A DNA stretch of 43,624 bases from a virus: the IMG/VR virus record IMGVR_UViG_3300046694_000290, positions 1 to 43,624 of that record, one strand, 5' to 3'. The notes under the pieces were generated by a model, which saw only the letters and a list, made by a program, of their open reading frames with translations, made no database searches and was not told the origin of the DNA. Numbering within the stretch: the stretch's first letter is position 1; every line of letters begins with the position of its first letter. A program made the translations under genes and the position numbers. Shown one piece after another: positions 6,141-7,849 of the stretch.

Positions 6141-6785
6141 TCACCAAAGCCCCTCGGGGCCTACGTTCTCTTCGTGCACTTCGCGGTCAATCGGCATGAT
6201 CACGCCCCTGAAGGTGGGGCCGATCTTGCACAGGATCGGTTCTTTGGCGTTGAAGACGCACATGTCGAGGGCGCGACCTAGGCCGTCCTTCCCCTTCGGG
6301 GCCTTCACCTTCGAGAACCGGGCCAGTAGGGCAGGGTCGAACGCGACCAGCTCGGGCATGGCCAGGGGCCGCCCTTCGAGCCGTGTAAACAGGCCGTCGA
6401 TGAACTCCCAGACAGGTTCGGCCGTGGCCGAAGCGTCCTGGGCCGCCGTAGGGGTGTCGTTGTTGCCGGGCCGGAACACCAGCCCGTCACCGGGCCGTAG
6501 TTCGAGCTTCCCGAAGCCCTTCTTGTCCTTCCGTCCGGCCGTGTCGAGGGCGGCCAGGGTGTCACGGTCGACATGCACCGTGACCCCCTCGGGAGGGCCT
6601 TCGTAGTCCTCAACAACGGCCGTGTCCTGGCCTATGGCGTATCCGTCTGTACCCGTGAACCGCAGGCCGGCGGGGCCGAGTTCAACCCGCGCGGTCGTCA
6701 CCATGGATCGGGCCGGAATGAAGGCGTGCGCGTTGTACGCGGCCCTGGCCATCTCTTCGCTAGGCAGCGTCACCGACGCTTGCAA
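6141..6785 (-). CDS. Beta sliding clamp (DnaN)-like protein, short form
   Basis: The product resembles DNA polymerase III beta-clamp domains. GLRFTGTDGYAIGQDTA matches the strand-turn-strand of a clamp domain, and PILCKIGPTFRGVIMPI matches the clamp C-terminus that ends in a MPxR-like motif. At about 214 residues it is well short of the usual 370, so it holds about two of three domains. It may act as a phage-specific processivity factor or a clamp mimic that competes with the host. The start is uncertain: TTG at 6785 has the strongest ribosome site (AGAGGAG); the frame extends to GTG 6857. It overlaps the end of the methyltransferase second frame. Confidence 0.7.
   Translation of the reverse strand: MQASVTLPSEEMARAAYNAHAFIPARSMVTTARVELGPAGLRFTGTDGYAIGQDTAVVEDYEGPPEGVTVHVDRDTLAALDTAGRKDKKGFGKLELRPGDGLVFRPGNNDTPTAAQDASATAEPVWEFIDGLFTRLEGRPLAMPELVAFDPALLARFSKVKAPKGKDGLGRALDMCVFNAKEPILCKIGPTFRGVIMPIDREVHEENVGPEGLW
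6383..6390 (-). promoter_or_regulatory. GTTTACAC site inside the clamp gene
   Basis: GTTTACAC on the minus strand, aligned with transcription, within coding sequence. Confidence 0.4.
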
Positions 6786-7590
6786 CGTCTCTCCTCTCAA
6801 GCTCCCCGAGAAGGTGGGCGAAGGCATGGAAGGCTTGTTGCGGGACAACCCCGTCACCAATGGCCTTCAACTGTTGGCCTCGGTCGAGGCCCGCAACCTT
6901 CGTGATCCATCCGGGCACGATCCCCATAAGCCACTCACCGAACCGAGGGGCCAGGCGAAGGCCGCCGCGCGGCCCGTACTCGACCGGCACGGGGGCCGGT
7001 TGCCCGGTGAGCACTTCCCAACGGCGTACGGCGGGGGCGAAGTCTCCCCACCATTCCGAGGGGCTGAAATCGCCCCCATAGTCGGCCCCAGGCTCGACGG
7101 CCAGGAGGAAACACACTTCGTCTTCGAGGGTCGGCCCGTGGCCGCCCTGCTTCCTCTTGTCGGGATGCTGGGGGGCACCGTTCCGCCCGAGATTCGCGGT
7201 AGGCGTCTTCAGTAGCTTCTCGGTCTTGTCTCGGGGCCACAGTCGAGCCATGGCGGTTACGAGATCGTCGCCACCGGCCCCAGGGCGGGCCGCTTTCGCG
7301 TAGTCCGGTCCTCGGCGACTGTCAGCGGCCGTGGGAGTCGGAAGGCACGGCAACGAGAAACCACCTATCGCGATGGTGGGGGGCACCAGCGGCGGACGCT
7401 CGATAACACGTCCATTGCGCGTCATACCCGCACGCGGCCAGGTCCCCGAGTACGCGGGCGAGTCCTCGGCCTCGGATCGCGGAGACGTTTTCCAGGAAGA
7501 CGAGCTTCGGTCGAAGAACGCGAACGGCTTCAGCAACGTTCGCCCAGATTCCCGAGCGCGACCCTTCGATACCAACCCGTTTCCCCGCAT
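6760..7590 (-). CDS. C5-cytosine methyltransferase, C-terminal part (second frame)
   Basis: A 276-residue frame starting at ATG 7590 with AGGA upstream. Near its end it carries GEWLMGIVPGWIT and RGQQLKAIGDGVVPQQA, the motif IX-X end of C5 methyltransferases. Its N-terminal half has an SSSSWKTSP and TWPRAGMTRNGR segment, then LPTPTAADS-type motifs; I recall the same combination from other phage methyltransferase-associated proteins. The first 269 bases overlap the first part (7322-7849) in another frame, and both frames look like real protein there. It may be a separate subunit, as in two-chain C5 enzymes such as M.AquI, or be joined by frameshifting. Confidence 0.7.
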   Translation of the reverse strand: MRGNGLVSKGRARESGRTLLKPFAFFDRSSSSWKTSPRSEAEDSPAYSGTWPRAGMTRNGRVIERPPLVPPTIAIGGFSLPCLPTPTAADSRRGPDYAKAARPGAGGDDLVTAMARLWPRDKTEKLLKTPTANLGRNGAPQHPDKRKQGGHGPTLEDEVCFLLAVEPGADYGGDFSPSEWWGDFAPAVRRWEVLTGQPAPVPVEYGPRGGLRLAPRFGEWLMGIVPGWITKVAGLDRGQQLKAIGDGVVPQQAFHAFAHLLGELERRDVASVGDAA

Positions 7591-7849
7591 TCGAAATGTC
7601 CTGGCACGGAAAACCGGCCGTCAGAATGTCTACGCCCTCTTCAGCGAGCGTCGCCCAATCAATCAGGGTGATATCCCCGAGATTCGGCACCCCAGGGAAG
7701 CGACGTTCGAGAATCAGGGCCTTACTCGGATCGTTGTCCGCTACCCACGTAACGCGACCCCCCGTTAGTGCCTCTACGGCCATCCCCAGGCCGCCGTAAC
7801 CGGCGCAGAGTTCCAAGATGCGGGGGGCCGTAGAAGGCCACTTACTCAC
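7322..7849 (-). CDS. C5-cytosine DNA methyltransferase, N-terminal catalytic part
   Basis: A 175-residue protein with the catalytic half of a C5 methyltransferase: SAM-binding CAGYGGLG at 15-22, the catalytic Cys82 in GFPCQDISNAG, ENV at 120-122, and AAGAPHHRDRWF near 153-164 (motif VIII). It stops right after motif VIII, so the target-recognition domain and motifs IX-X are missing and lie in the overlapping frame at 6760-7590. It would protect phage DNA from host restriction. The GTG start overlaps the stop of the preceding small gene. Confidence 0.85.
   Translation of the reverse strand: MSKWPSTAPRILELCAGYGGLGMAVEALTGGRVTWVADNDPSKALILERRFPGVPNLGDITLIDWATLAEEGVDILTAGFPCQDISNAGKRVGIEGSRSGIWANVAEAVRVLRPKLVFLENVSAIRGRGLARVLGDLAACGYDAQWTCYRASAAGAPHHRDRWFLVAVPSDSHGR

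Follow-up and report, generated by a model that had tools for sequence, protein, structure and literature searches.

Catalytic and recognition halves of a putative two-chain phage cytosine-5 methyltransferase read from overlapping frames of the same DNA

The stretch of DNA analyzed here in full (hereafter the window; 43,624 nucleotides) comes from a virus record, IMGVR_UViG_3300046694_000290, and its closest named relatives are Streptomyces phages, for example, Samora, phiBT1, and Lilbooboo. An earlier note made from the letters alone had described a C5 methyltransferase split over two overlapping frames with 269 bases in common, and both open reading frames were found as described. The first, alpha (7849-7322, minus strand; 175 aa, GTG start, TGA stop), is the predicted catalytic subunit with C5-cytosine methyltransferase motifs I-VIII, recognized from its ORF, PF00145, and phrog_363. 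The second, beta (7590-6760, minus strand; 276 aa from the first ATG), is read +1 relative to alpha and contains target-recognition modules together with motifs IX-X. It reaches 562 bases beyond the end of alpha, which terminates approximately 12 residues past motif VIII. The overlap (7322-7590, minus strand), delimited by the ORF coordinates and marked by reduced alpha third-position variability, is read in both frames. Within it, the +1 constraint profile defines a dual-coded core (7387-7536, minus strand) in which beta KPFAFFDRSSSSWKTS...TWPRAGMTRNGRVIERP lies over alpha motifs VI-VIII. This core includes the alpha ENV of motif VI (7484-7492, minus strand), where CTGGAAAACGTCTC reads as LENVS in alpha and as WKTS in beta. 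The candidate beta start (7588-7602, minus strand) consists of an ATG at 7590-7588 and an AGGA at 7602-7599 with a spacing of 8 nt, and a TTG at 7575 on the same strand is a second possible start. A further ORF on the minus strand (6141-6860) matches phrog_12598 weakly (E 1e-6) and, with a TTG start, would share as many as 101 bases with the end of beta.

The motifs are divided between the frames as had been proposed, with I-VIII in one and IX-X in the other. The alpha match to PF00145 in Pfam is confined to positions 2-165 of 324 (E 1.1e-36); alpha also matches phrog_363 (E 4.3e-56) and positions 205-375 of phrog_116. It provides the catalytic motifs I, IV (PCQ), VI (ENV), and VIII of the PF00145 family, with FPCQ as motif IV and HHRDRWF as motif VIII; the ENV and motif VIII that had been assigned to the first frame within the overlap are both read in the alpha sequence. 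A Pfam search of beta returned no match. Beta belongs to phrog_1008, named "DNA methyltransferase" (E 7.8e-46, profile positions 64-320 of 329), and its overlapped N-terminus by itself matches positions 72-124 of that profile. Because the beta C-terminus matches phrog_116 at 409-496, downstream of the part matched by alpha on the same profile, beta is the IX-X half that alpha lacks. Within the window, motif IX (RLAPRFGEWLMG) and motif X (AIGDGVVPQQA) occur in beta only, and it is through beta that both are found downstream of a variable recognition region, as in PF00145-type enzymes. Motif X (beta residues 244-249) has GD in the window clade in place of the usual GN of relatives. These phrogs are sequence clusters, dividing beta (phrog_1008, overlapped N-terminus included) from alpha (phrog_363 and phrog_116), and their names are silent on shared DNA or on one joint enzyme. 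Relatives of beta were found by tblastn in 570 phage records. The recognition modules of the window beta read LPTPTAAD and LLKTPTANLG; in the window (6760-7590) and in loci L007, L054, L060, L066, and L099, the recognition regions are tandem LPTPTAxD modules that vary in number and order, with examples such as DWKSGASNLHG, NLGxNGxxQHPDKRKxGGHGPTL, and GPHGGPNxR. These tandem modules look like exchangeable specificity cassettes.

The earlier note had based its suggestion of selection on an SSSWKTS/WPRAGMTRNG segment in the second frame. This segment is present in beta, but it is partly forced by LENVS and GYDAQW in alpha and is insufficient as an argument for selection. The motif-VI DNA (CTG GAA AAC GTC TC) that gives LENVS in alpha gives WKTS in beta, and the DNA for GYDAQW reads as [GAVD][MT][MT][RPQL][SN]G in +1, from which the M/T-M/T part of beta GMTRNG derives. 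Since alpha fixes WKTS and part of GMTRNG, motif resemblance alone proves nothing. Moreover, because alpha conservation yields some +1 conservation for free, a null model was needed in which the alpha protein is held fixed and its synonymous codons are resampled. The same dictated residues lend some credence to a reading in which alpha alone is functional and the conservation of beta is forced by alpha together with GC-rich codon usage. However, the resampling fails to reproduce that conservation. In a set of 80 gapless, non-identical alpha genes, some from loci retrieved through beta, +1 stops within 50 codons from ENV were found in 0/80, whereas 31 were expected (at least 19 in each of 200 resamplings). 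For pairs with less than 65% alpha identity, +1 amino-acid conservation was 66.7, compared with 21.5 ± 1.4 expected from alpha alone. Because some of these loci had been found through beta, the stop test was rerun on a set of 31 loci for which alpha had been the only query, with duplicates removed at 80% DNA identity. Over motifs VI-VIII, a +1 stop occurred in 0/31 against 12.8 ± 2.5 expected (minimum 4 of 1000), and the +2 frame of the same 31 loci contained a stop in 26 against 20.9 expected. A stop test on loci L125-L237 was discarded, as the region length there was set by the beta ORF and zero +1 stops were therefore built in.

The constraint has a sharp position along alpha. Conservation in +1 is flat or weak to codon -16 relative to ENV, with no onset of constraint in codons -35 to -16, rises abruptly at -15 (z 28.6), and stays high to codon +34 (z 11-30 for each 10 codons); at columns 0 and 26, conservation does not exceed the synonymous-codon null. 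Conservation in +2 likewise rises at the same point, as expected with frozen third positions. Single alpha codons are also locked: the Arg of "LRP" is CGA in 85/91 genes (background 19%; 30/31 after de-duplication), the Gly of GYD is GGG in 75/76 (background 26%; 27/28 after de-duplication), and the Leu of LENV is CTG or TTG in all 76 of 76 (background 40%). At these positions, alpha is held to codons that beta alone requires. Within the window clade (n=9), variable alpha third positions fall from 63/84 codons before the overlap to 25/70 within it (p=1.5e-6), and variability inside the overlap rises instead at alpha first positions, the third positions of beta. The +1 frame is open even in phages of 44% GC, in which +2 is full of stops, and beta runs past alpha with conserved modules and motifs IX-X, which leaves a functional alpha with a merely forced beta frame exceedingly improbable. 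The synonymous-codon null, the codon locking, and the third-position loss in the window clade all agree with the earlier suggestion that both frames are under selection. They show that selection maintains both readings and that the overlapping pair is real and widespread, not the remains of a broken gene.

How beta is translated bears on whether it exists as a chain of its own. In-frame starts upstream of the constrained segment were found in 90/97 loci, compared with 66 expected, and ATG starts in 64, compared with 37. Given that constraint sets in at -15, the beta start must precede that codon; its position is not conserved and lies at -33, -28, -25, or -24 in different clades. Alternatively, programmed +1 ribosomal frameshifting near the alpha stop could produce one full-length chain, with beta never made alone. 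In the window, the alpha stop sits in the context CGC TGA C, and termination at UGA is weak when the next base is C; in addition, PRFect predicts frameshifts in methyltransferases beyond the annotated cases and cites known frameshifted ones (PMC10885494). Nevertheless, under such frameshifting the beta segment before the alpha stop would stay untranslated, yet precisely that segment is constrained, and a shift placed where constraint begins would bypass ENV. Across relatives, alpha stops differ in place, codon (TGA, TAA, TAG), and context, with no conserved slippery site at the alpha stop, and in relatives with beta nested inside alpha, a chain shifted into beta would be without motif X. Frameshifting is therefore considered unlikely, and internal initiation of beta is the preferred reading.

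As a control, 17 genomes carrying the overprinted locus were searched for all PF00145 genes. Matches to the whole family in these genomes had a +1 frame mostly closed within 51 codons, and the beta motif was absent from every full-length PF00145 gene. Among the partial matches examined (to approximately position 165), nine had a +1 frame open for 60 codons together with the motif; two others without the motif resemble ordinary methyltransferases carrying a large insert. In a scan of bacterial genomes and viral contigs with a consensus peptide representing the beta N-terminus, 99/99 motif-detected beta N-termini lay in +1 exactly over the alpha xEN motif, a figure that locates the motif and says nothing on constraint. 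Ten loci missed by the pattern were found by inspection to have the beta N-terminus over xEN as well, and no free-standing beta N-terminus was seen in the scanned genomes and contigs. The possibility that the locus is a degenerate, frameshifted single-chain gene, with alpha a truncated remnant and beta a functionless leftover frame, could draw on the existence of single-chain relatives (L112, with modules in the alpha frame) and on the phiBT1 record, which calls alpha possibly inactive. However, both frames are conserved across highly diverged phages, the window clade keeps both open with reduced third-position change, and many phyla are represented among the phages, plasmids, and bacterial genomes that share the layout, so that decay is very unlikely. 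The frameshifting, pseudogene, and codon-bias readings were accordingly rejected on the constrained +1 segment, the conservation across diverged phages, and the synonymous-codon null.

The overprinted genes occur in four layouts. In the nested layout, which is that of most of the divergent relatives (L118, L120, L159, L190, and others), alpha carries I-VIII and X, and beta lies inside alpha and ends in LNPxWVEWLMGFPxGW, which is motif IX; it was found in Salmonella, Microcystis, Sulfitobacter, Lacticaseibacillus, and Paenibacillus phages, a Leptospira plasmid, and E. coli prophages. In the window type, alpha carries I-VIII and beta carries the modules with IX and X, and this layout, with both motifs in beta, is a derived one. 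In the recognition-only layout (L071, L083, L086, L080, L103, L115), alpha continues from I-VIII through an out-of-frame spacer to IX-X, and beta consists of modules only. Substitutions in the module region of these six related loci by alpha position 1/2/3 are 0.262/0.105/0.119, and past the end of beta the peak is back at alpha position 3 (0.246); because the peak moves to position 1 and then returns to 3, the coding frame goes to +1 and comes back. In-frame alpha spacers of the ADADGERR type are out-of-frame readings of LPTPTASD modules. Lastly, L112 is a natural single chain in which the modules are read in the alpha frame and the +1 motif has disappeared. The window alpha is 61% identical to the N-terminal part of L112, and window beta residues 83-269 align with L112 residues 248-408 at 40%. 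In this alignment, beta residues 1-82 have no counterpart in L112, which is the point in favor of a reading in which beta, although produced alongside alpha, acts as an independent regulator or adaptor and not as the recognition half of the enzyme. Against it, motifs IX-X of the window are in beta only, alpha has no recognition region, and the aligned part of beta corresponds to the recognition and IX-X part of L112; such a separate role for beta is highly improbable.

In a tree of the alpha core, all overprinted genes cluster together (114 rows, SH-aLRT 97), separate from the ordinary methyltransferases, and they thus descend from one overprinted clade. The window-type, recognition-only, and single-chain layouts lie in a mainly actinobacterial subgroup (35 rows, SH-aLRT 98) that includes L112. 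The tree was quick, with some weak forks and a midpoint root, and several of its "nosig" rows are pattern failures, not losses. The earlier note had held that homologues with one intact frame and no constraint in the second would speak against its reading; L112 alone is of this kind and, by its place in the tree, appears to be a derived loss inside the overprinted clade, and other relatives with IX-X in alpha keep the +1 constraint. We lean toward a history in which a single ancient overprinting put the recognition subunit of a C5 methyltransferase into +1 over the catalytic domain of the same enzyme. Phages, plasmids, and prophages of many bacterial phyla would since have retained the dual coding, even as motifs IX and X shifted frames and whole recognition modules were swapped, such that one DNA stretch would encode both enzyme halves and a swappable specificity subunit. 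A subgroup comprising Wile, Andrew, Catdawg, Raleigh, and PFR1 (L008, L010, L245, L005, L011) has an insert after ENV (ENVRGLLSA...), with the +1 motif after the insert or nearer motif VIII. Long G runs in or at the end of the gene in L062, L070, and L119 are probably assembly artefacts at contig ends.

Taken together, we consider it probable (approximately 0.85) that the locus encodes a two-chain DNA cytosine-5 methyltransferase. From sequence, we infer internal initiation, assembly, activity, a target site, and an anti-restriction role. Alpha would supply the AdoMet-binding and catalytic domain (I-VIII), and beta, translated from its own internal start in the +1 frame of alpha, would supply the recognition region and motifs IX-X. 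The two chains, made separately, would join into one enzyme, in which the overlapped beta N-terminus would most likely serve assembly or DNA contact, and the likely role of this enzyme would be methylation of phage DNA against host restriction. An AlphaFold2 model of beta built from 37 sequences had a mean pLDDT of 54.6 and suggested, at low confidence, two pairs of strands (21-27/32-35 and 55-58/61-64) within the overlapped N-terminus. A Foldseek search of the PDB with this model gave nothing at E <= 0.001, the top-ranked but non-significant entries being C5 methyltransferases, and a beta profile search against PDB sequences gave no match. The poor beta model and its lack of a significant structural match weigh against the two-chain reading, as do the shifting position of the beta start, the GD of motif X, and the inactive label on the phiBT1 alpha, although in that record beta had been left unannotated. 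For L112, AlphaFold without an alignment reached a pLDDT of 33.9.

Annotations of these loci commonly retain beta only, alpha only, or a late beta start. In phiBT1 (NC_004664.2, L003 1418-2347), alpha is gp9.1, annotated as "may be inactive," and an intact beta ORF is unannotated. One partner is dropped or trimmed in Jinkies (L009, without an annotated alpha), Samora (L002), a Microcystis phage (L242), a Salmonella phage (L238), and E. coli PT62 (L247), and the prophage alpha of E. coli PCP07014 (L248) is annotated as a pseudogene with an internal stop. If the proposed reading is true, many phage and prophage methyltransferases labelled as short, inactive, or two unrelated genes would be two-chain enzymes, and many "truncated" phage methyltransferases would be annotated half enzymes. 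Cloning the annotated ORF alone would then give a dead protein, and methylome-to-gene assignment would therefore fail for such phages. Long same-strand overlaps with constraint tested in both frames are seldom documented in dsDNA phages, and here the products of the overlapping frames would be halves of one enzyme. The series of nested, M.AquI-like, recognition-only, and single-chain revertant layouts would offer a natural series in which to study the origin of an overprinted pair, its domain exchanges, and its reversal. Natural split methyltransferases are also useful as tools.

Two-chain C5 methyltransferases are already known. The beta chain of M.EcoHK31I is read from an alternative frame inside alpha, and we know of no long out-of-frame dual-coding segment in M.AquI. 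Both are natural split C5 enzymes, and split forms can work; in M.SssI, complementation is best with C-terminal fragments whose first residue lies between motif VIII and the recognition domain (PMC3404938). In M.AquI (CYCGRG), alpha carries I-VIII and beta the distal variable region with IX-X (PMC3404938). The window shows the same division, although the M.AquI alpha holds part of the variable region, whereas the window alpha, ending approximately 12 residues after VIII, does not. In M.EcoHK31I (YGGCCR), the larger chain carries I-VIII and X together with the recognition domain, and the smaller chain carries IX (PMC3404938). Likened by the description of its motif layout, this division is that of the nested relatives, in which IX alone is in the smaller chain. 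In contrast, the window beta holds IX with X as well as the recognition region; its position in an alternative overlapping frame (+1, 269 bases, both frames constrained) follows the M.EcoHK31I plan. The two-chain enzyme proposed in the earlier note is the best reading of the window, and its comparison with M.AquI fits the I-VIII/IX-X division, but M.EcoHK31I is the better precedent for the wider family.

Among SEA-PHAGES annotations, adjacent "DNA methylase" pairs (for example, Samora 34/35, Wile 75/74, Andrew 43/44, Catdawg 6/5) represent the same type of locus recorded as two genes, with beta often trimmed past most of the overlap (Samora 35). The ShiLan domain, an HNH endonuclease out of frame inside a phage methylase, is also a second protein within a methylase gene (PMC11855218). 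This domain, however, is inserted as a mobile element into a different methylase (gp65), whereas the window beta would be the methylase's own recognition subunit. Our literature search found no paper describing an overlap of the present kind in phages, which is weak evidence of absence. What appears to be new is the demonstration of constraint in both frames, the breadth of the family and its single clade, and the joining of an M.AquI-like division with a long out-of-frame overlap.
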